DNA from: Metaphire vulgaris
Lineage: Eukaryota; Annelida; Clitellata; Crassiclitellata; Megascolecidae
Direction of reading: 5' to 3'
Length of the DNA stretch: 64,000 nucleotides
Assembly (NCBI GenBank): GCA_018105865.1
Contig: CM030832.1
Coordinates: forward strand, 19,101,519 to 19,165,518
The notes beneath the pieces are model-generated. The model saw only the letters and a program-made list of their open reading frames with translations, did not search any database and had not been told where the DNA came from. Of this stretch, positions 9,201 to 48,900 are shown piece by piece. The translations under genes and the position numbers were made by a program. The number at the start of each line of letters is the position of its first letter. Positions within the stretch are counted from its first letter, which is position 1.

Positions 9201-12200
9201 ATGGCGACGTCCTGCACAAGCGGCGAGACCGACTCGAGGCTTCCGAAACGATCGCGAAACAGTTGAGGACAGCCAAAACTCTTCAGCAGACCGATGGACT
9301 CGAAGAAATCCTCATCTCCGGTGCAACGTGGCATGTACAAACGCATGCAAGGCAGCCATAGATAGGCGCCATAATACATTAATGAAATTTCTGTTTTTTT
9401 CTTATTTGGCGCCACTATCGTAATGTCCAGGGCATCAGCCGATGGGGCACCATTCCAAATCGAGTTAACTACTACCGTATTTTCGCGCATATAAGACGCA
9501 CCCGCGTATAAGACGCACTAGCGTATAAGACGCACCCGCGTATAAGACGCACCCGCGTATAAGACGCGGGTTTTGTTGTTTGTGTTAAAATAATTTTGGA
9601 TAAGACGCACCCACATATAAGACGCACGCTCCCGGCGAAAGGCGCGCCCCGGCGACCCGTCAGCACTCGTCGACCGGTCGCCGCTCCCGGCAACCCGTCG
9701 CTCCCGTCGGCATCCCGTCCCGCCGGCGCCCCGCCGGCGCTCCCGGAGACCCGTCGGCGCTCCTGGCGCCCCGTCGGCGCTCCCGGCGACCCGTCGGCGC
9801 ATCCGTCGGCGCTCCCGGCCTCGTCGGCGCTCCCGGCGACACGTCGGCGTCGGCGCGTCGGCGCTCCCGGCATCCGGCGCTCGGCGACCCGTCGGCGACC
9901 CGGCAACCCGTCGGCGCGCCCAGGCGACACGTCGGCGCTCGGAGGCGACCCGTCGGCGCTCCCGGCAACCCGTCGGCGCTCCGAGACCCGTCGGCGCTCC
10001 TGCAGACCGGCGTCGGCGCTTCATGTTCCAAAAAATTTAGATAAGACGGAGACGCACCAAGGGGGCTAATTGTGTAAAATTCGCTCCCGGACCCGTCGGC
10101 GCTCTCAGGCGACCCGTCGGCGCTCCCGGCAACCCGTCGGCGCCCGTCGGCGTCCCAGCGCCCCGTCGGGCGCTCCCGCCGGCGCTCCCGGACACCCGTC
10201 GGCGGCGCCCCGGCGCGGCGCCCCGTCGGCGGTACACCCGTCGGCGCTCCCGGCGCCCCGTTGGCGCTCTAGGTGAGCCGCCGGCGCTCTAGGCGACTCG
10301 TCGGCACAGTTATTCATGTTCCAAAAAATTTAGATAAGACGCACCCGAGTATAAGACGCACCAAGGGGGCTAATTGTGTAAAAATTCGTATAAGCCGCGG
10401 CTTATATGCGCGAAAATACGGTACTACTTCTCTTTCGTCCCTCTCGTTTTATGATTTCCGCTGCAATCGCTACCTGATTAGAATCAATGGTGGCCAGGCA
10501 GCCCCTATCCACCGAACGCCGAGTAGGAAATCATTAATTAATCCTAATTACCCACTTACAAATACAATCCGGTTATTATTTTCTTTATTAGTTTGCTAAA
10601 TAAATAAAGATATGACTCACTGTATTCTCCTCCACATATAGTGAAAAAAGATCAACTCAGCTTAAAACGATTTTAAAGTAACATGTAAAAATTCCTAATT
10701 TAGCGACGGAAGCAGGAAGACAAAAGCTCTCTTTGCATGGTGTTATCGCTACAACATTGCAAATATCCTGCATCCCTAGTTAAACTGCGCAGATTACCCC
10801 TAATTTCGGAAGATCGAGAGCTTCAATGTGTTCACTAGAAGATCTTTTCTTTGGGTGTTTGACTTCTTAAGTTTGCCATTTATTTTTCAGTTATTTTAAC
10901 TATTTCAGTTCTTTATTTTTCAGTTCCAGTTCCAGTTATTGGCATTTTTCAGTTTCAGTTTCAGTTAACTGATTGGTTATTTTTCAGTTAACTGATATTT
11001 CAGTTTCAGTTACAGTTAACTGAAACCACACTGCAGACAATGCATAATAACAGACTTAAATTCACAAATGAGCATGTGTCAAGTCTAGGGATGACAATGC
11101 CTTGATGGAATTATTAGTACCAAACACAAATAACATCTGTTATTGCCAACTGTTGTCATAGGCCAGCTCCAAACAAAGGTCTGCCTCTACCAGGTGTATA
11201 TACTTCCAGTGCTCCTTTATGGAGCTGAAGCATGGACACTGGCATCTTTGTTGAACCATAGACTATTCTTTCCATCAATGGTGTCTCCAAGGACTGCTTT
11301 GTACACCTTACACCTTGAACATGACCAAAGCAGAAGTCTTCCAGCTCACGGGCAAGGGTTCAATCTCAGCCAAAATTCATGCCAGTAGGTTGCACGTATT
11401 TGGACAAGTTGCACGGTCCAAACCATACGTGCTACAATTTTTGGCCCACCTAAACACTGGAAGCATCCAGTTGCAAGATCACACACCACCTGGTCAAGGA
11501 CAATGATGTTCTGTGGCTTTGGCTGATACTTTTGATATCTGTCGAGCATGATTCCTCAGACGTGAAAGTCAAGTGGATTGATATCTGGGGAGTTGGGTAG
11601 CCAGTCATCTTTCTTGATGAAATCTGGACAATTTTGCTTCAGAAAATCCTGGGTCCTGAGAGCAGAGTGGGCAGGTGCTCCATCTTGTTGGAATATAAAA
11701 TCTTCTCCTAGCAAATCATGAAAGTCCTGCAGGAGATCTGGTAGCAGCTGAGTTACGTAGCACTCGGCATTCACTTTGGATTTGTCTGGTACGAAGTGCA
11801 GACGACCCTTGCCCTGATGGCACACTCCAGCAGACACCATGACATGTCAGAAAAACATTGCCCGCTGCTTGACAAGTTGTTCTGATGGCAAATCTCTTTT
11901 CCTTCCCACACCCCACACATGCTTGCTTTGACTGTTGACTGGTGGATCAAGCTAGAAGGCCTTTTCGTCAGTGAAAAACACCTTCTTAAGTCCCATCAAA
12001 CGTCTGCAGCGAGACAAGCGCTTGTTCCTGGCTGCGACATTGTAAATTTTAAAATGTGCGTCTCTTTAGCTTTTTGGCCATATTTCAGCAAACACTAAAG
12101 ACATCAGCATGCATTTGGCAATTACATCAGAAACATCCCCAGGTATATGGCATATACATTTTATTGAAATCACTACACACACGGCTGAGATATTAAATGT

Positions 12201-17803: not shown

Positions 17804-20800
17804 AATTGCTCTCTGCCAACTCATTATTGGCAATAGCTAGTCAGAAAACATTTCCAGGCTTTTTTGTCAAATGCTAGTTTTCTTCCTTCTACAATTGTCA
17901 GTTGTCTTTCATTGAAATATTCTTTTATGTTGTCTGTCCATTTTTTTCTGGACCTGCCTCTTCCTTTTTTGCCTTCTTTGTCTGTGAAGAGTGCTTTTTT
18001 GGGAAATCTCAAGCCTTTCATCCTGTTAACATGTCCATATCATGTTAGCCTCCTTTTTCTGAGTTTGTCCATGATGGTATTCTTTAGCCCAATCCGCTTC
18101 CATATATCTTCATTTCTAAGCTTTTGAAGTCTTCAAACTCCAAGAATTCTTCTTAGGCAGCTCATTACTGCAGCAAGTAGTCTTTTTTCATCTTCTTTTA
18201 TGACCCAGGTTTCATATCCATATAGTATATGAGGAATGACAAAGTTGTAGATTTGGATTTTGGTGCATATTTTGATTTCTTTAGAGTTCCAGATGCGTTT
18301 CAGTCCTCCCATTGTTTGTAATCCTTTTGCTATTTTCAGTTTGATGTCTTCTTGGTGGCTTCCATTGCTTGTTATTTGTCCTCCTACATATGTAAAGCTT
18401 TCAACCTGTTCAATTTTTGTACTTTCTAGAGTCAATCGCATCTTCTTTTCTCCTGTTTTGCTGACCACCATGGTTTTAGTTTTTGCTGCGTTTATCATAA
18501 GGCCGAATCTTTGGCTCGTGATATTGACTTTGTGTGTCAGTTTTTGTAGATCTTTCCTGGATTCTGCAAGCAAGGAGACATCACCTGCAAACTTTAGATT
18601 ATAAATATTTCTCCATAGCACTTTACACCAATGTTTAAGTCTTTGGTTGCTATTTTGTATATGGCCTCAAGAATTATGATAAACAGCATTGGTGAAAGAA
18701 TACACCCCTGTCTTGTTCGGAAGTTGTTCCTACTTCTGTCTTAAACAATTCTGCTAGTTCATGTTCCACCCTCACAGCATTTTCTGCTTTTCTATAAACC
18801 GTTTGGATTAGCTTTATTAATTTTTCTTCAATTCCGAAATTTTTCATTGCTTGCCACAGCCCATCATGCCACACTGAATCAAAAGCTTGTTTGTAGTCAC
18901 TACAGTTAATGTAGCATGTATTGTTAGTCTCAATATATTTTTCCAAGATTTGTCACTATTGTGTCTCCTCCAGCCTTTATTAGTTCTGCTGGGATATTGT
19001 CAATTCCTGATGCTTTATTTCTTTTTAGTTCTTTTATCGCTTGTTCTATTTCTGTTTTAAGGAAGTCTTCTGTAGATTTCTCTAGGTTTGTGCTTGGTAT
19101 TTCGACTAGTATATTTGGATCTGTCTTGTTCTGAGTATTATATAACTCTTCAAAGTGTTCTTTCCATCTTAATTTAACTTCATTTGGCTGGTTATTGCTT
19201 TCCTTTGTTTATCTTTGATTGTAGTCATTTTCATTTCAAAATCATCGCTTATTATCTTTATGTCTTTATATGCTTCCCGTGTCCTGTTTGCGCTGAAATT
19301 ATTTTGTATTTCTGTACATATATTTTGCAGCCATCCCTCTTTATTCCTCTTCAGTTATCTTTTAATTTCTCTTGTTATCCAGTTGATTTGTTGCTCGTTG
19401 GATGATTTGATTCTTAAATTTCTTCATTCAGTGTTCTTCTACAGAAGCTTGCTGAGTTGTTTTGGCCATTTTATTCTTTATTTCTTGTTTGTATTTGATC
19501 CTTGTTTCCTCTTAATCCAGTTTTGCAACATTAAATTTTATTCTTCTTTTTGTTCCTTGCAGTTTCCTTAGTCGTATCTTGATCTTTGACATCACCAGTT
19601 TGTGATCTGACCCAATTTCAGCTGCACATGTTCTTACATCCAATACATTTGTTTTACATCTTCTATTAATAATGATGTAGTCTATCATATTTTTTGTTTT
19701 CCCATCTGGTGATTCCCGAGTCCACTTTTATTTGGTTCATTTTTCAAAAAATATGTTCATTATTGACAATTTGTTTGATGCACAAAAGTTAAGTAAACTT
19801 TCCCCTCTATCATTTTCTTCTCCAATCCTATGTTTGCCAATAGTACCTCCCAAGTGCCATAGTCTGTCCCAACTTTAGTATTCCAGTCTCCGGTTTGATG
19901 ACATGGGTATTTTGAGGCCCAATAACAGTGAAAACGAAAAAAATTCTGCTGGGCAGAACGAAAAAGTCTTTGAACTTTCGTGACGTGTCAAAACTATGTA
20001 CCGTATTTTCGCGCATATAAGACGCGGCTTATACGAATTTTCACACAATTAGCCCCCTTGGTGCATCTTATACTCGGGTGCGTCTTATCTAAATTTTTTG
20101 GAACATGAATAACTGCGCCGACGGGTAGCCTAGAGCACCTGCGGCTCGCCTAGAGTGCCGACGGGGCGCCGAGAGCGCCGGTGGCTGGCCGAGAGTGCCG
20201 TCGGAGTGCGCCCACCGACGGGACGCCGCCGGGGTCGCCGAAGGCCGGCGTGGCGTGCGGGACGGGTGCGCCCGTCGCCGTCGGGTGCGCGCCCGACAGC
20301 GCCGGTTAAAGTGCCCGGCCGACGGCGCCGACAGCAACGACGGTCGCCCGGAGCGCTGACGGGCGCGGAGCGCCAACGGGGCGCCGGGAGCGCCAACGGG
20401 GCGCCTTTTGGTGCGTCTTATATATGGGTGCGTCTTATCCATAATTATTTTAACACAAATCATCAAAACCCGCGTCTTATACGCGTGTGCGTCTTATACG
20501 CGGGTGCATCTTATATGCGCGAAAATACGGGTATGTCATAATTGCTTTGACACATTTCACATAAGATCATTTCTAAACTAAAATATCACATTGTATATAA
20601 TTTTTAATGTCTATAACATATTTGTACATGTTTTCAGATAGTTTTCTGATAGTTTTTCTCCCTAGAATTATCTTTTGGAGATGCAGTCTTGGTTCCATTT
20701 AAATCTGTTCATAACTTAGGTATATTATTTGATACCGATTTATCGTTCAAGTCTCATTTTTCTAAATTGTCACAGTCTTGTTTCGCATTCATGCGTCACT

Positions 20801-23800
20801 TTAGAGGGATTCGTAAGACATTGGACACAAGGTCTTCAATAATCTTAGCTAATGAATTTATTTCGTCTAAAATCGACTATTGTAATTTGCTTTTTTTCGG
20901 GTTGCCGAAGTGTTCTCTCCAACGTCTCCAGACTATTCAGAATGCTGTTGCGAGAATTGTAATTCCAACGGGGAAATTTGATCACATTACCCCTGTCCTT
21001 CATAGGTTGCACTGGCTTCCCATAGCGTAGTTTACAAATTATGTCATCGGCATGTCACGTGATAGCTATTTATAGATTTGAGCAAGGTCATGGTCGAAGC
21101 GGACAAACATTGTAAAATCAACATGATGGACTCGCGTTTTATTAATGTTAAATTAACCGAAGACGATGTTCCTGGAGCAAAACTTGTTTATGCTGATGTT
21201 GAACAGCATTCTTGTGTTCAATTGAAGCGATGGTTACAATGTCGAGGGCTTGCAGTCGGTGGGAAAAAAGAACAACTGTGTAAAAGGTTGGTACTTGTTG
21301 TGGAACTTATGGTGCTACAGTGCCCTACAGTGTGTAATAATAATCCGCTGATCTGAGCTGATCTCCGTTTGAAATCAATCAATAAACTTCTATGGCGCCA
21401 CTATCATAATGCCCAGGGCATCAGCCGATGGCGCACCAAACCCAAATAGAATTAGAGCCAGGTCAATCCGGAAGATCAGTCAGAACAGCGGGTGAGCAAG
21501 CAGTGGCGGCTCTAGGATTTGGCAAGTGGGGGGCCGTTGGGGTGGCAACTTCTAATCATGGGGGCCAACCATTTGTTTTTTAATGTATGTAGCATTAAGT
21601 ATAGGGTCCCAACTGGGGGGCCACTGGGGGGCCAGTCACTCAATAGGGGGCCCCCGGTGGAGCCGCCTCTGTGAGCAAGGTAAGGGGGATAAGCCAAGTC
21701 AAACAGGTAAGTTTTAAGACTAGATCTAAAAGATGATAATTTTTTAGTTTGATATTGATAATGAATTCCAAAGCTTAGGGCCACACACTGAGAAACAACT
21801 AGTGCCAATGACTGTGCGAGAATAAGGAACAACAAATGAAAGTCCTGCCGAATACCTAGTGGATTGAGCAGTAGGTCGAGGGATTAGTCGCATCTTAAGG
21901 TAATATGGTTCATTATATAATATAGACGTTTAGTGGTCCGATCAGCGGCTATAGAGGGGGAAGAGATCAGCGGATATGGAAGGGATAACATATGACCTTT
22001 GGTTAGCCCATTTCTCATAATTGAACCATATACTTTCCATATTACGATGTCTTTTTACATGATATAGAATTGCATAAACTGTATATGTTAAATATCATGT
22101 ATGTTTAATCTTCTTCCTCGATAAATAAATTGATTGATTGATTGAAATTACTGATGTGCATAAATCCTTATTGTTCATTAACAGAATTCGGGATTGTTAT
22201 GATGCGAAGAAAGACAAGGAACTGTCAATAGCAATAGATGAAGGGAAATGGTATGAGAGAAAGCTTGCTTCTTTTGCAGCGTCATCTTCTTCAGTAGATA
22301 CGGATCTGTCAGACTGTCCATGGAAAACGTTTCCTTCTGTTATAATCCCCCAAAACTTCAATTGCGGAACTATATACCATCACCTCATAGAGTCGGTGCA
22401 ATTTGTAGACAGCATCACAGGTGATACTGAAAGACCGTTCGATGATTTGCATACAGCTAAACCACTGAGACGTGGCAAACAGTACTACGATAGTAGGAAT
22501 GTGTCAGCAATGCAAGACTGCTATAAGCAAGGCAGTTATTGCGTAAAAGCTCTTGTTGCACATTCGATGACAACAGGACACTACACAGTTAATGTTGAAC
22601 TTTTCAAACAGTCTGGCTTTGTAAAAACTGCTAGTTGTGAATGTAGAGCAGCAGCAATGGGGAGATGTAGCCATGTTGCCGCTGTTTTATATGCTATATT
22701 AGATAACATGAATAGGCCTCACGACAATTTATCTGTTGCAAGCACAAGTAAGCCGTGTGTTTGGGACAAAGGCAAAAAGCATCGCAAACATCCCAGAAAA
22801 ATTACTGAAACGGATTACTTGACTAGAGCTCCAAGAAAGCCATCCAAGGTACTGCAGTTTGATCCAAGACCTCCTGCTTTTCGTGATGCAACTTTGAATA
22901 AGAGTGACTTTAACAGTTTCATAGTCGATCTACAATCATGTGGCAATGGAACTCAGACTAGCATGTGGGAAACTCTGCTACAGCTACAGTACAACGATTA
23001 CAATTTGACATTCAGTGAAATTGTCCTGTTGAAGGCCAAATGCACACAGCTAGTCGACAGTCTGAGAGTTCCGGGTTAGAATTTTTTCTATTTTGCAAAT
23101 GGCTACTTATTTACTATGAATTGCAGATGTAATTGCATTTAAGTAGTATTCAAATATGCATTATCAAAAGTTGACATTTCTTTTAAATATATTTAATAAC
23201 CATTCACAATATATTTCACTTTACAGTACTAGATGTGATATGTTTCACAATTTTTGCATTGTACCTGTTTATAGGTTGTAAGCCTGTTGAAATTGTTACT
23301 AGTCAGAGGAGTCCAGAATGGTATCATCAGCGTCGATTGCGCATAACTGCATCAAATTGCCACGATGTATCATCTTGCAAGTCATCTCAACGTGCAGGTA
23401 GCATCATTAACAAGCAACTGTGGTCTAACCAACCCCTATCAACTGTTTCAATGAAGTATGGTCAGCTGCACGAGTCAGATGCCAGATTAGCTTTTTGTGC
23501 AGCTATGCAAATGTCGGTCTCTGGTCTAGCAGTCATAGAAACTGGAATGTGGGTAAATCCACAGTTTCCTTAGATTGCCTGTTCTCCTGATGGTCTTGTC
23601 TATGATCCAACAATGCCAGTTGCTAGTCAGTATGGGCTTATCGAAATCAAGTGTCCAAAAGTCATTGAAAACACAAGCCCTCTTGAAGCTAAAGACAGCC
23701 TCACCAAAGAACAATGGCATTCATTTTGTTTAGCAGACAGTGAGGGCAAACTGATGTTGAAAAGAAGCCATAAGTATTATTATCAAGTGCAGTGTCAACT

Positions 23801-26800
23801 GGGTGTTTGCGAATTGTTATGGTGTTATTTTGTTGTTTGGTCAAAAGAAGGGATTTTTATAGAAAAAATTTATGCTGACCCAGTATTTTGGCAAAGTACA
23901 AAAAAGAAGTTATTGTCTTTTCATGAGAAGTACCTGTGTCCAGAGTATTTTGAAATGCGCCTTCCAAGGAAACTAAGCCTTATAAAGTTAGAATAAGTTA
24001 TTGTGTTCTTATACTGTTGCTGGTCACTTTTCAAACATAGTTTCAATTGGACACCAAAATTTCACCACATGCATTTTTTCTTCACTTACGTTTGCAGGCA
24101 AATAGTTGCTTTGCAGAACATGTTGTTCATTGTTTCATCTTGTCTAATGTTTGCTGACACCATAGTTACTATGGTCATATAGATTAAATGATTAAATGCG
24201 ACCAACTGTAAGCTGAACTATATTCATATTTCTTTACATCAATATGCTCTTTTTAAGTTTTTGCTGCTTTTATTATACATTGAAATATAAACAGGCAAGC
24301 AATTGATTTATCTCTTCATTTTTAACATAGCGACCTTAACTCCCAAAGTAATTAACTAATAATAACATAATCAGAAACATGCAATATTAGTATCATATAA
24401 AAACCACATCTCTTACAGTACTATTTAACAATAGGCTCTTGAAAATTAACCAAACATGCACAAACAAATACAATTTGAGAAAACACTGGTGTTAGGGAAA
24501 GTGGTATTACTTTTTGCAACAAACAATATTTTTTAAGCCTCTCAATTGCACGTTCTACATGTATGTGAACTTTTGCTATCTGCTTCGTTTTAGCTTCTTC
24601 TTGGGGGATAAATTTATTCCAGCCATGCAGAAACGGTGGAATGTTCAAGTCAACCCCTCTTTCACTCAGCAAATCGTTTATTACAAATCCTCTGTCTGCC
24701 AGTACCATATCCCCTGCATGCAGTTTGTCTAAGAAGCCTGATTGAATTACAATATCCTTATCACTAATAGATCCTTCATATGCATCTGAAGCGTACATAA
24801 TTGCACCACTAGGCGATATGCCAATCAAAACCTTAAACGTGGTATGACTTTTATAACTAGAATACAAATTTCCTTGCTGTTCAAAGTTAGCAGCCATTTG
24901 AACTCGAAACTCACTACAATCAATTATCATCCTAATGTTCTTGTAACGACGAAAACAGGCAGGCATGTGGCATTGTAAGTTTTGTCGTGGGGGAAACATC
25001 TCATTTCGTAATCGATTAAACTGTAAGTACAAGAACTGAATCCACGTGGTAATAGTTATTGTCAAAACTGCTTCAGAGACACAGAAGCGAAATGCCAGAT
25101 CCTTATTTAAAAGCCCTAGCCGTAGTCTCATTAATGTTAAAAGTAATTGATCTCTGTACGACAAAATGCTTGGTCGTCCGCAGGCACTGCCTTTTCCATG
25201 TGACACCTCAACTTGTCCTTTCCGTCGACTTTTTTCTCCTCTATAATATTCCAATGTCTCTGCACTGGGGCCTAGAAATCGCAGCACACAAAGAAATTGC
25301 AACCAACTGAGCCCTGTATAGAAGCGATATTTCTTCTCGTCATTTTCCACATCGGCTACTGAAAATTTCTTGGACGTTTTCAAGTTGGTACTGTTGCTTA
25401 TTGATTCCAGTTTTCTTTCCTATTCCTTGATTTTGAGTTTTGCCATCAAAAGCTCAGATACTTCAATACGGACTTGAACTGCCTTGTCAACCATAACTGG
25501 ATGGTCAGTCTGTACTTGGATCACTCGCACCTTGACAGGTGTATACTGTGATTGACAATCATTAAACGCGATTTCGTAATCAGCAACAGACACATCAGTT
25601 GCTGCTGCAGCTTCAGACGTCGTTTCAATAGGTTTCTCTGTAACCGAAGGCTCAGACATTTTTCTTGTGGCTGGGCATTTCCGTTTTCGAGCAAACCTAG
25701 CCACCTAAACAATATGAACAACAGTAGTTATCATTGCTGCATACATATATTTCTAGTCAGCAAAGTTATAGTTCTATATACAATACACAATTATTTTCAA
25801 TATAGTTAGTATCATGTCAGTATTCATATTCGTCTCATTTTTTAAAGTTAGTACCGACAACAATTTACTTCCAAATAGCTACACAGTAAGATTACAAGGA
25901 TCATAATGATTTATATCATTGGACTAATTCTCTTTGCTCCACTATTTTGATTAGAATGGATGCTCAATTCTCTGCTCAATTTTTTTACTCTAATGAATGC
26001 TTAATGTGAGAAATTGATGTTTTTATACATGTAGCTGATATGCTATTCTGTTGGAAATAATTTAATTTAATTTTAAAAATATATAATACAAAATACCCAG
26101 ACATATTACAATAGGCCTATTACAATTTAAAACAAAATTGTTACCTTATCAGCAGAATAGGTAGCCGGAATAGGATCAGGATTATCATCAGTTGGTCCTT
26201 TACCTCCAACAAAATGAACACTGCAAATGTATGTATCTTTGGTAATGTTTTTGTATGTGAATCCTTCCCGGCCACAATTGTTCGCCCACACCTTACATTT
26301 CTCAAGATAGATGTTCGGCTTTGGGAATCGTATAAAAAACACATCTTTCATGTAATCCTTGTATGTATATCGGCTGTCGTTTTTGCAAACCCCATAACAG
26401 CAGTGTTTTGTAGCAGGCATCGTTTAAAAACCTTTATAAAGTTTGTATATATAAGTTTATAATTATAATGTTTATATCCGTTTCGCTAACTCGCATACAA
26501 CAATGTTTGTCCGTTAGGGCGTGACCAACCGCGCATGCACAGTTGGCATGAGGTCATAGGCTATTTTTAGGTCTCGCGACCACATTTGTAAACTACCCTA
26601 TTGAACAACGTATTAAATTCAAAATTGCTACCCTCACTTTTAAGATATTAAGAAATCAGCATCCCACTTATCTTCGAGAAATGCTATTATATCATCAGCC
26701 ATATATATCCACGAGGTCTGCAAATAAATGCCTTCTTGAAATTCCCTTTCGTCACACTAAATCTGGATGTAGGGCCTTTAGTTATGCATCTCCATATGTT

Positions 26801-29800
26801 TGGAACTCCCTTCCCCTTGATATTCGGATGGCCTCTTCTCTAGATATTTTTAGGCGTCACCTTAAAACTTATTTATTTCCTCCTTAAGTCTTGGTATAGT
26901 CCTGACTGATTTTTGGTTTTTGACCTGGACAGAACCGACCCTCCTCAGCTACAGTCTGCTCTGCCGATGAGCACTGTGGTTTGTGGTCTGAGGTGTCCCC
27001 GATGAACACCTGTGTTTGAAACGGACGATAAAATTAAATTAAATTAATAATAATAATAATAATAATGTGTCTTGTTGCTGACAAAACCTTTCAGGAATTT
27101 TTGTGACAAGTGCCAAAATACATATGCCGTAATTGCTTTGAGACCCTTCACACAAAATCCTCTGTAAACTCAAATATGACACTTATACATCTATATATAA
27201 ATTTTTACTAGAAAGATGCTCGCTTCGCTCGCGCTCGCTTCGCTCGCAGTGCAGGATAATACTAATCCAATACCTACCCCTAATACCCAATCATTGAATT
27301 CATGCTGAACAACATTTCGATGACGTACTGTACATACGTCACCTAGCCAAGCTCTGCGCCACGTAATAATTAGGCCTATGTACGTTAAAATCATGCAACT
27401 GTGACCATTTGTGACGCTGTATACACACGTATTTTTTGTGTACGTTGAAATTGCGCAACTTCCTCAAGCTACGCCCACCAACGCATCTCGACGTTGTACA
27501 CATTATGACGCTGCAATGAACAATTGAACTTGTGACAAGTGCCAAAATACATATGCCGTAATTGCTTTGAGACCATTCACACAAAATCCTCTGTAAACTC
27601 AAATATGACACTTATACACATATATATAAATTTTTTGATTGGTTGACTATTGGTACTTGTCACAAAAATTCCTAAAAGGTTTTGTCAGCAACAAGTTTGG
27701 TTACCAATAGCAACGTCGTCTTCGAACATCGCGCACCAACGCATCGCGACGTAAGGACTAAACCGTCTACCAATAGTCAACCAATCAGAACGCTTGAAGG
27801 TAACAGAAATACAGAATAAGGATCTTAATATTATAGATATGCTTATTACTGTATTACGTATTTGTACATGTTTCAGATAGCTTACTTACACTGTTTTGTT
27901 ACTGACAGAGTTTTTGATGAACTTCAAAGTCCAATTTTAATTTTTAACTTGTTTTATATCATCTCATGAAGTATGAAGAATGTAATTGCAAATGTTAAAT
28001 TTTTTGTTTCATATTCTTGTAGATAATCAAAAACCCTATCCATTGAGACACATACATTGTCAATATTGCTGTGATATTTGATTTAAAACATTTTGAGGGA
28101 ACTGTTGGGGGGTAAATTCTGTGAAAACAACATGGATGCCAAAGAGTTAATTTATTGTTCCTAGGTAATCTAGTTAACAGTTTATCCAGTTCATCAATAA
28201 ACAATTCAACAGAAGTGCCAGGCAGTCTGTAAATACATACTATAGTGATATTTTTGTTACTTAGAATCTCAGTTTGAATGGTTATATATTCAAAAGTAGA
28301 AACAACTTCTAATATAGGATCTATACGTTTGTAATTAATCATGGAATTAATAAGAAAACTCACCCCACCACCTCTTAATTAATTTGGTCTATGACAGTGT
28401 TTTTCAAACTTTTTCCTCTCGCGGCACACTAGAAATATGTGAAAACATCGGAGGCATATGTGAAAACATCGGAGGCACACTTGAAATGATGTCACAATTT
28501 TTGGCAGATGAAAGGCTTCAAAACCTTCCATAGTGAAAAGCCAGTGAACATCAGTTATGGTATAATAGGCACGTATATTCGGAATCCATTGCCTCACAGA
28601 GCTTTGAAAGAAGTCAAGATTTAAGTGGTCGAAATTTTATGAAGTTCACAACTTATTCAGAACAAACTGCAAGTCCTCTCTGTCGGTACACAGCCGCTCT
28701 GCAGATAAGACCCATGCGGTATACATCTACTTAGGTGTCATGTAGAAACTGGAAACCTTGCACATATCCAGCTACTTAAGAGAAGAAAGCTCCCCAATCA
28801 AACCATACACATAGCATGGGTTGTATCTTAGTGGCTTAGTTGTACTTGGCCCCACGTAGTCTTAACTGCAGGTCACAACCCCTCCCCACACCATCATCGT
28901 CTCGTATACCAAGGGACTTGGCATGCAATAGTGAGCTTCCCGTCCTCACAGGTCCCAGGAGGCGAATTATCAAGACTAGATTAATCAGACACATCAGTGA
29001 TGCTACAGCCTTCACTGGCTACGCGTACAAGATAGAGTGTCGAAGCACAGTCATTGATCAGAGACATTTAAAACATTGGAATTCTAAATTTAATAGAGTT
29101 TCCAAAAAATCCCATGACACGCCTGATAATCTCACGCGGCACACGAGTGTGCTGCAGCACACAGTTTGAGAAACACTGGTCTATGATTATGTTCAAAGAT
29201 AAAACCAGGAATTTGAATAAGTTCAGCTAATTCTTGTTGAAGCCACGTCTCTGTCAATGCTATAATTTTTGTCATTATTTTGGCTATAAGTAAGGATATT
29301 TCATTTACTTTGTTGTACATGCTACAGAAGTTTATGTGCAATAGACTAAATAAGGGATTATAATTAAATTTGGCCAGATAGGAATTCATATATTTTAAAT
29401 CCAAGTAAACACTAGTAGGGATAGTCATATTATTAAAATAATTAATATCTGGGTCGTGATCAATTTCCTGGTTTGATAAGTTATCTTCACAATATTTGCT
29501 AATTTTATAGTATATCTTACTTAAGTTAGTATTTATATCATTAAATTCATTATTATTATTTTATAAGCATTTCAGAATTCATATACATATGATCAAAAAA
29601 TGTGATAATAAGGACCGTGGCAATAGTACTCCACAGACTCCAATGAATGATAAACAAAAAGAATAATTCTTAATTAAGCTTAATTAAATTACACTGTAGA
29701 GAAGAGAGAATGATGAAAAAAAGGAAAAAATACAAAACAAAACAAAAAAAGACAAAATCTTAATTAAACTCAATTAAATTACACAGTTAAGAAAAATGCT

Positions 29801-45900: not shown

Positions 45901-48900
45901 CGCTCTTGACTTTAGCTCCAGTTATGCTGGCGCTATATAAATTGTCGAGATAATAATAATAATAATAATATATATATATAACACATATAACCTATATAAC
46001 ATATATATATATGTTATATTATATGTTATATGTGTTATAATTACATGCAGACACAGATCACAACTTGGTAGTAATGAAGGTGAGAATACAACTGAAATAT
46101 ATAAACAAGAGAAAACAATTAAATATACAATGGGATAGAGATAAAATCAAAGAAAAGGCAACAGAAATTATGGGAAGATTGAAAAACAAAGCGACAACAA
46201 ACACAGGAGAGACAACGGAAGAAAGATGGGAAAAACTAAAATCTGTGGTAGTAAGAGAACTAGAGCAAGAAGTAGGAAGGAAGAAAAGAAGGAAAGCTAA
46301 AAAGCCATGGGTGACAAATGAAATGATAGACGACATGGAGCAGAGAAGAAAATGGAAGAAGCAGAACACAGAATATGCAAAAAAAGAATATAGGAGACTA
46401 AATAACCAGCTGCGAAGATCAACAGAAAAGGCGAAAGAGAAATGGTGGGAGAATAAATGTCAAGAAATAGAAAAGTTACAAGGACAAGGGAAACAGGATC
46501 AAGTATATAAGGAAGTAAAAGATTTAACAAAGAAAGAAGGTATGCAAGGGAGCAGGGCGGGTATTAAAGACAAACAAGGAAATACACTCACAACCCAACG
46601 AGAAGTGGAAGAGAGATGGAAAGAATATACCGTATTATCTCGGGTATAATACGCACTTTTTTTCCAAAAAAAAATGCTAAAAAGTCTGGGTGCGTATTAT
46701 ACATAGGAATAAATTTTTTTCACTCTTCAGTCAAATGCAGAAGCAACGCTATGGTACATTCCCGTTATTGTTAGGTATGTAGTATTAAGTATACCGTATT
46801 TTCGCGCATATAAGACGCACCCGCGTATAAGATGCGGGTTTTGGTGATTTGTGTTTAAAAAATTATGGATAAGACGCACCCATATATAAGATGTTGGAGG
46901 TGAGTATTGACATCAGGGCTAAAGACCAAAATATCGTCCAGGTAGCATAGAACATATTGATAAGTCATGCCCTTGAAAACGTGGGCCATCATGCTCATGA
47001 ATGAAGCAGGTACATTACATAAGCAAAAGGTAATCGCAAAAATTGGCACTGACCAGAATGTGTCAGGAATATTGTTTTCTCTTTTGTACTTGGGTCCAAT
47101 GCAACTTGCTGATACCCTTTCTGCAAGTCAAGGACAATAAAATTGTAGGCTTCTACACTTTTTGTGTGGACGACTGCTCCCACAGAGGATCACCACAGCG
47201 AAATGCGGGCTATCATGCTCATGAATGAAGCAGGTGCATTACACAAGCCAAAAGGTAATCACAAAAATTGGTACTGACCAGAATGTGCCAGGAATATTGT
47301 TTTCTCTTTTGTACTTGGGTCCAATGGAACTTGCTGATACCCTTCCTGCAAGTCAAGGACAATAAAGTTGTAGGCTTCTACACTTTTTGTGTGGACGACT
47401 GCTCCCACAGAGGATCACCACAGCGAAATGTGGGCTATCATGCTCATGAATGAAGCAGGTGCATTACACAAGCCAAAAGGTAATCACAAAAATTGGTACT
47501 GACCAGAATGTGTCAGGAATATTGTTTTCTCTTTTGTACTTGGGTCCAATGGAACTTGCTGATACCCTTCCTGCAAGTCAAGGACAATAAAATTGTAGGC
47601 TTCTACACTTTTTGTGTGGACGACTGCTCCTGTTGACCTGGCACAGTTATGCATTTTAAAAACCTGTAAATCCCTAAATTTTCCACGTTGACTTATACGC
47701 AGGTCATAGCAAATTTCTTAGATTTTGGCCTAAAACTGGGGGTCGACTTATCTGTGAGATTGACTTATACGCGAGTATATGATTAAAGGTGGTCCGTTTT
47801 GCCTCTTTCAAACTGGAAAGTTGACCGCTGGTTCTCAAAATTTCAGGTGCGTATTATACATAGGTGTAAAGATTTTTGCATTATGATAAATTTCGAAACT
47901 CAGGGTGCGTATTATACACGGCTGCGTATTATACCCGAGATAATACGGTATAGAAGAATTATACCTGAAAGACAGCAAACCAATGGAACTCAATATAGAG
48001 GAACAGCAAACAGTTGAAAGCGAAGAGCTAGGACCAGGACTGATGAAAGAAGAAATTCTGCACGCATTAGAAGAGATGAAAAACAACAAAGCAGAAGGAG
48101 TGGACCACATACCAGCAGAAGCAATAAAGATACTAGGAGAGAATGCAACGAACGAACTGGTCGAAATCTGCCAACAAATCTATATGACAGGAGAATGGCC
48201 AAACGATTTTCTACAATCAATAATGATTCCGATTAAAAAGAAAGTAAATGCAATGGAATGCGAGGACCATAGAACTATCAGTCTATTATGTCATGCGGCG
48301 AAGATAATACTCAAGGTCATTACAAAAAGAGTACAAGCGAAAACAGATGCAATAGGATTCCTTGGAGAGGATCAGTTTGGGTTTCGGAAGGGAAAAAGAA
48401 CACGGGATGCAATCGGATGCTTAAGAATGCTAAGTGAGAGAAGACTTCAAAATGGAAAAAATATCTATACATGCTTCGTGGATTACGAAAAAGCGTTTGA
48501 CAGAGTAGATTGGAGGATTTTGATGAGAGCACTGAAAAGGGTGGGAGTGGATTGGAGAGACAAAAGACTGATAGCAAACCTATACCTTGGACAGTCAGTG
48601 AAGGTGAGAATAGAGGGAGAACTGAGTGAATCGTGTATGATTGGGAGAGGAGTAAGGCAGGGATGTCCACTGTCACCGCTGTTGTTTAACATATACATCG
48701 AAGAATTAGTACAAGAGGCGATGAAGAATACAGATAAGGGAGTAAAAGTCGGAGGAGTACTACTAAAGGCGCTGCGCCATGAGACGATCAGGCCATGCTA
48801 GCAAGTAATCAAAAAGGGCTTCAGGAAGTAATGGATAAACTGATAAAAGTGTCAGAAAAGTATGGAATGAGAATCAATACAAAAAAGACTAAAGTTATGG

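Follow-up and report, generated by a model that had tools for sequence, protein, structure and literature searches.

What splits a long interspersed nuclear element (LINE) in the annelid Metaphire vulgaris, and why does the inserted sequence carry a gene for a lambda-type exonuclease next to a transposase gene? Both questions arise from a stretch of 64,000 nucleotides (GCA_018105865.1, contig CM030832.1, positions 19,101,519 to 19,165,518, forward strand; hereafter the window, to which coordinates refer). A full-length ISL2EU element of the PHIS group occupies positions 21024-26599. We read it, with a probability of about 0.93, as a member of a young ISL2EU family and as the product of a cut-and-paste insertion into the LINE. 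Judged against the publications cited below, the family is a new one within the ISL2EU group, and the window element taken alone is an ordinary, well-preserved member of that group. A sequence-only reading had already proposed an ISL2EU-type transposon here, and its account of what the element is, where it ends, which genes it carries and how the empty site reads holds throughout.

Borders and empty site

20653..26884, plus strand: fragment of the host LINE, interrupted by the element, its frame open once the flanks are joined
21022..21023: left target-site duplication, AT
21024..21039, plus strand: left terminal inverted repeat, AGCGTAGTTTACAAAT
26584..26599, minus strand: right terminal inverted repeat, AGGGTAGTTTACAAAT
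26600..26601: right target-site duplication, AT

The terminal inverted repeats are 16 bp long and match each other at 15 of 16 positions, with AT on both sides of the element, which agrees with the single mismatch and the AT duplication of the sequence-only reading. Removal of the element together with one AT restores the host LINE as that reading had claimed, with CCC ATT GAA translated as P I E. Across the joined flank of 323 bp, all of the 40 LINE paralogues scored in the same genome (among 242 candidates) match through the site at 96-98% identity, and the six that were fetched and read by base all have CCCATTGAAC without a gap. Since the element starts with A and finishes with T, its duplication could be written as AT or as TA. 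We ruled out TA, which adds two bases, shifts the LINE frame and disagrees with all six fetched empty copies; the duplication is AT because these copies read CCCATTGAAC and the frame is kept. The empty sites and the restored frame thus fix both borders to the base. At this target the AT is preceded by C (C-AT-T). Six LINE remnants within the window also carry the site motif at the same spacing, which is weak evidence, as the pattern itself fixed the spacing.

With up to three mismatches, the pattern AGSGTAGTTTACAAAT occurs at three places in the window against 1.55 expected from shuffling, and its only matches without mismatch are the two element ends. An 18-base pattern of the left end, AGCGTAGTTTACAAATTA, is found 19 times in the genome and its reversed control not once, which speaks against a chance arrangement.

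Two convergent genes

21123..21286, plus strand: nuclease exon 1 (SAP)
22185..23074, plus strand: nuclease exon 2 (SWIM, C-x-C...C-x-H)
23275..23996, plus strand: nuclease exon 3 (YqaJ / lambda-exonuclease domain)
23571..23573, plus strand: premature TAG, ahead of the catalytic D-E-K residues
26145..26420, minus strand: transposase exon 1 (THAP)
24421..25704, minus strand: transposase exon 2 (HTH_Tnp_4, DDE_Tnp_4)
25420..25422, minus strand: premature TAG, ahead of the DDE core
21501..21671: nested hAT-like miniature inverted-repeat transposable element (MITE) in intron 1 of the nuclease gene, TGAGCAAG on either side

The nuclease product has 591 amino acids and matches the Pfam families SAP (8.5e-6) and YqaJ (5e-14); the SWIM match (0.001) scores 19.0 bits, slightly below the cut-off of 19.6. 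We aligned 33 of the 46 relatives found. The SWIM residues C-C-C-H are present in all 32 that cover the site, the catalytic residues D-E-K in 32 of 33, and the E before them in all 33. Compared with solved structures, the profile finds lambda exonuclease (1avq, 3.4e-14) and the exonuclease 3syy (1.1e-29); lambda exonuclease, known also as Red alpha, thus shares with this protein its catalytic core by profile match and the D, E and K residues. The transposase product has 519 amino acids and matches THAP (4e-8), HTH_Tnp_4 (2e-10) and DDE_Tnp_4 (5e-41), all above their cut-offs; its THAP part also matches solved THAP domains by profile. Among 31 aligned relatives, taken from 120 listed and 604 found, the acidic residues D, D and E of the DDE core are conserved in 31, 29 and 28, respectively.

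The convergent, spliced SAP-SWIM-YqaJ and THAP-DDE genes that had been proposed are therefore upheld by open joined frames and Pfam matches. All three proposed junctions (21286/22185, 23074/23275 and 26145/25704) are of the GT/AG type and join open frames, and the choice of 21286/22185 retains a KR-x-x-C stretch that is also present in relatives. A mechanical scan found alternative junctions with equally open frames, and the exact splice junctions are to be taken as predicted. Each gene is interrupted by one stop, as had been noted: TAG at 23571-23573 and at 25422-25420. As both stops lie ahead of the catalytic cores, the window copy could move only if served in trans, and it would have been decaying since its insertion.

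The nearest relatives of the nuclease and of the transposase have 60% and 64% identity, respectively, and probably share one contig of 4600 bases; four further pairs of relatives likewise lie on equal-sized contigs. Where a listed relative carries the name of an organism, that organism is an animal; ISL2EU elements have been described as confined to animals. When a close relative of the nuclease (P0001) served as single query, no match was obtained in the viral collection. The nuclease alignment, searched against the same collection, led to at least 431 of 600 stretches confirmed as exonucleases. The 80 of these matches that were retained cover at most residues 264-556 of P0001, with 22-30% identity in the best segment, and since none starts before residue 264 they leave the SWIM part uncovered. 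For the transposase alignment, the viral collection gave 77 candidates and no relative among them.

The MITE in intron 1 is 171 bp long and, with its 8-bp duplication TGAGCAAG, spans 21493-21679; we take it to be hAT-like from this duplication and its CAGTGGCG end. A related MITE, in the opposite orientation, is nested elsewhere in two other copies of the element (C1:4.22M and C2:23.59M).

A recently mobile family

We searched the genome of M. vulgaris itself (728 Mb, 246 contigs) and found at least 106 DNA matches to the element, with 40 of 5260 candidates scored; copy counts are thus lower bounds, and 21 stretches were fetched for reading. Besides the window copy there are near-complete copies at C5, C32, C1:4.22M and C2:23.59M, about 98% identical, and more diverged ones at C11 and C9. 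In the 13 other copies with two ends, the 16-bp repeat is perfect in six and has one mismatch in five (left end AGCGCAG), and the right end is damaged in two (L093 and L107); the CCCT mismatch at the right end of the window copy does not recur in the other right ends examined. Small damage in L093, L097 and L107 aside, the visible copy ends coincide with those of the window copy, and the two genes lie between terminal repeats at several unrelated loci. Neither copies with shifted ends nor a two-gene synteny lacking terminal repeats, the observations that the sequence-only reading had named as fatal to it, were encountered. The AT duplication flanks 13 of the 14 two-ended copies, L107 with its damaged right end being the exception. 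In those 13, A precedes the AT in 10 and T follows it in 10.

Both premature stops are missing from all four close copies, which are therefore the same-ended copies without the stops at 23571 and 25420 that had been suggested as a check. Among the five near-complete copies, the window copy has 34 private substitutions and the others 10-14. The copies at C1:4.22M and C2:23.59M (L091 and L092) carry at the same element position one and the same nested insertion, which is 192-195 bp long and has GCGACCTT duplicated, and their outer flanks differ, each with its own AT duplication. As the same insertion lies within different outer flanks, the element moved after the nested insertion had occurred, and for one transposition the pair thus provides a dated sequence of events. 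The close copies, the absence of the stops from them and the shared nested insertion at different loci together establish that the family is recently mobile.

Relation to known transposons

ISL2EU elements have been described with AT duplications, an A-AT-T target, a THAP-HTH-DDE transposase and a YqaJ protein (PMC4482050); a second source concurs on this gene content (PMC9179366), and a third places ISL2EU in the PHIS group, in passages that leave the nuclease aside (PMC12730594). The M. vulgaris element shares with them the AT duplication, the THAP-HTH-DDE transposase, the YqaJ exonuclease gene, the short terminal inverted repeats and a length of about 5 kb. Its 16-bp repeats fall in the range of 6-259 bp, and the A-AT-T target appears as a preference among the copies of the family. 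By contrast, the SAP and SWIM domains of the nuclease and the subterminal repeat described below are not mentioned in the parts of PMC4482050 consulted.

PIF/Harbinger elements have a related DDE transposase and the same two-gene plan (PMC4482050, PMC9179366), but they differ in their 3-bp TWA duplication and in a Myb/SANT second protein, in place of the 2-bp AT and the YqaJ protein found here; no Pfam match to Myb/SANT was obtained in the proteins of the element. Spy elements are unlike it in making no duplication and in having a single open reading frame. KolobokE likewise combines a DDE transposase with a nuclease of the lambda-exonuclease type, although its transposase belongs to another superfamily and its nuclease lies downstream of the transposase domain (PMC9587614). 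As Kolobok lineages carry both lambda-exonuclease-like and DnaQ-like nucleases, the capture of nucleases by transposons probably happened more than once.

Other elements of this genome follow a similar plan. We compared 25 hand-listed transposase loci outside the family with 15 places of the nuclease. At nine of the 25 a nuclease lies within 10 kb, in one case 7.9 kb away, and all nine pairs are convergent, including the two that were fetched (L130 and L131). L130 (G000:C14:15589500-15596500) is a two-gene ISL2EU-like element whose nuclease is an intronless open frame of 544 amino acids, about 35% identical to P0001; its inverted ends, AATTAGGCTGATCGCGGAA, are about 5.6 kb apart.

Evidence against, and exchange between copies

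Several observations weigh against our reading of the element. None of the five near-complete copies in the assembly has both genes open. The earlier suggestion that active relatives probably exist is thus borne out as regards recent movement and lacks a near-complete copy in which both genes could be read. In the other four near-complete copies we counted 16 coding-exon indels of 1-2 nt, 11 of them in runs of at least three equal bases, and these small indels may be assembly errors; C32 also has a 942-bp insertion in nuclease exon 1, with an imperfect 16-bp duplication. At 16 of the 25 other transposase loci no nuclease was detected within 10 kb, and five nuclease loci have no listed transposase nearby. 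Some lineages may thus do without the nuclease; alternatively, the unpaired loci may have decayed or been missed. The terminal repeats start with AG, unlike the GG usual in the group (PMC4482050); that source says 'usually', hence an initial GG is not an exclusive feature. Finally, the transposase has a ratio of nonsynonymous to synonymous substitution rates (dN/dS) of 0.89-1.29 when the window copy is compared with the four close copies, and the ratio of the nuclease rises in other pairs, to 0.72 between C1 and C2 (7 differences) and 0.57-0.63 among L093, L094 and L095.

In the same comparison of the window copy with the four close copies, the nuclease has a dS of 0.029-0.042, a dN of 0.004-0.008 and a dN/dS of 0.14-0.26, and in many other pairs the transposase dN/dS drops to 0.30-0.50. 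We did not infer relaxed selection on the transposase from its higher values among close copies. That interpretation was dropped because a mosaic tract gives nuclease exon 2 a deeper history. The nuclease differences from the window copy lie mainly in exon 2, where synonymous codon changes predominate (12/6, 9/4, 10/7 and 9/7 in the four copies). Between element positions 1165 and 2159, 11 of 12 informative sites pair the window copy with C32, whereas a pairing of C5 with C32 appears at 17 informative sites outside this tract. Over the 29 sites the two groupings fall into 5 runs (P 9e-5), a clustering which indicates that copies have exchanged a tract of about 1 kb. At nine of the 11 sites shared by the window copy and C32, the more diverged copies carry the base of the window copy. 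Gap repair, gene conversion and ordinary recombination between alleles could each leave such a tract.

A co-divergence of the two genes was also considered and is not used as support. Over eight two-gene elements the correlation is r = 0.89 (P 0.002-0.003); without the most distant element it falls to r = 0.55 (P 0.028), and with either member of the closest pair removed as well it is about 0.

Deletion derivatives and minimal ends

21100..21113, plus strand: left subterminal inverted repeat, CGGACAAACATTGT, element positions 77-90
26500..26513, minus strand: right subterminal inverted repeat, positions 87-100 from the right end

The family includes at least two classes of deletion derivatives. 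Six copies retain element positions 1-286 with internal pieces, and five of them also 5405/5410-5576; the right end of the sixth, L103, lies outside the fetched stretch. Twelve other loci retain the last ~290 bp and some internal sequence of the right half, and the two of these that were fetched (L106 and L107) keep the first 141 bp. Common to the derivatives with two ends are about 141 bp on the left and about 167 bp on the right. These shared minimal ends contain the terminal inverted repeat and a 14-bp subterminal inverted repeat, CGGACAAACATTGT, the longest word that the two ends share; none of 300 shuffles reached 14. The repeat precedes both start codons, by 9 bp at the nuclease ATG and by 79 bp at the transposase ATG. 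With two mismatches allowed, all 18 left and all 16 right ends have it, 15 of each exactly, in copies that are 77-98% alike, so that conservation alone is weak evidence. The better argument is its retention in every derivative examined. From its position, it may serve the transposase, expression of the genes, or both.

The six derivatives of the first class (L100-L105) all have an internal, right-end-like ATTTGTAAACTATGCT about 315 bp from the left end, with one further change in L102. Their first 315 bp thus resemble a small element within a larger one.

Possible roles of the nuclease

In the mechanism that we envisage, the THAP domain of the transposase would recognise the ends, that is, the terminal inverted repeat and the subterminal repeat, and the DDE domain would excise the element and join it to the target with a 2-bp AT stagger. 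The SAP-SWIM-YqaJ protein would be a DNA-bound lambda-type exonuclease acting on the break left by excision or on intermediates of transposition. In 2015 no function was known for the additional open reading frames of ISL2EU (PMC4482050), the papers that we found on ISL2EU and exonuclease contain, in the parts consulted, nothing that settles the role of the nuclease, and those on SWIM with YqaJ, judged by title and abstract start, describe no such element. We tentatively favour, at clearly less than even odds, a nuclease that resects the donor gap, which would then be refilled from a sister or from another copy, and of the roles considered this seems the most likely one. It would be a bolder and rather improbable step to grant ISL2EU a recombination arm of its own: by resecting the break after excision, a Red-alpha-like exonuclease would compel the gap to be refilled by homology from other copies. 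If this were true, cut-and-paste would yield a net increase in copies, and mosaics like the tract of about 1 kb would be left behind.

The YqaJ protein could alternatively be mainly a DNA-binding helper, a counterpart of the Myb-like protein of PIF/Harbinger, with an incidental nuclease activity. Harbinger transposition in vitro does need both genes (PMC9179366), and the SAP match, the SWIM match just below its cut-off and the invariant C-C-C-H residues would suit a binding protein. Yet the near-complete conservation of D-E-K and the preceding E would be needless in a mere binder, and the transposase has a THAP domain of its own; we regard such a helper as possible but unlikely. More doubtful is a nuclease that, instead of serving transposition, helps the element to withstand the host or competing elements, for instance by breaking down their linear DNA or by altering the choice of repair. 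The occurrence of exonucleases in unrelated transposons (lambda-exonuclease-like in KolobokE, DnaQ-like in KolobokD; PMC9587614) would agree with a trait of this kind, but the convergent arrangement at all nine paired loci suggests a joint function with the transposase, and the same source supposes that the KolobokD nuclease acts on transposition intermediates. That the locus is not mobile at all, and consists of a pair of host genes or of sequence that lies between short inverted repeats by chance, is refuted by the empty sites, by the many same-ended copies at unrelated loci and by the nested insertion shared between different flanks, and we give it almost no credence. With its recently mobile ISL2EU family, minimal ends, deletion derivatives and empty sites, this genome offers material on which the role of the nuclease could be tested.

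Other repeats in the window

At gathering thresholds, the window has no match in Rfam. Positions 9644-10305 and 20117-20204 contain GC-rich degenerate minisatellites with CCGTCGGCGCT-like units, beside 17-bp repeats of CGCGTATAAGACGCACC, and sequence resembling these minisatellites or 17-bp repeats reappears just upstream of the host LINE. At 46983-47630, a 225-bp unit is repeated in 2.9 copies (96%) between two LINE-like open reading frames.

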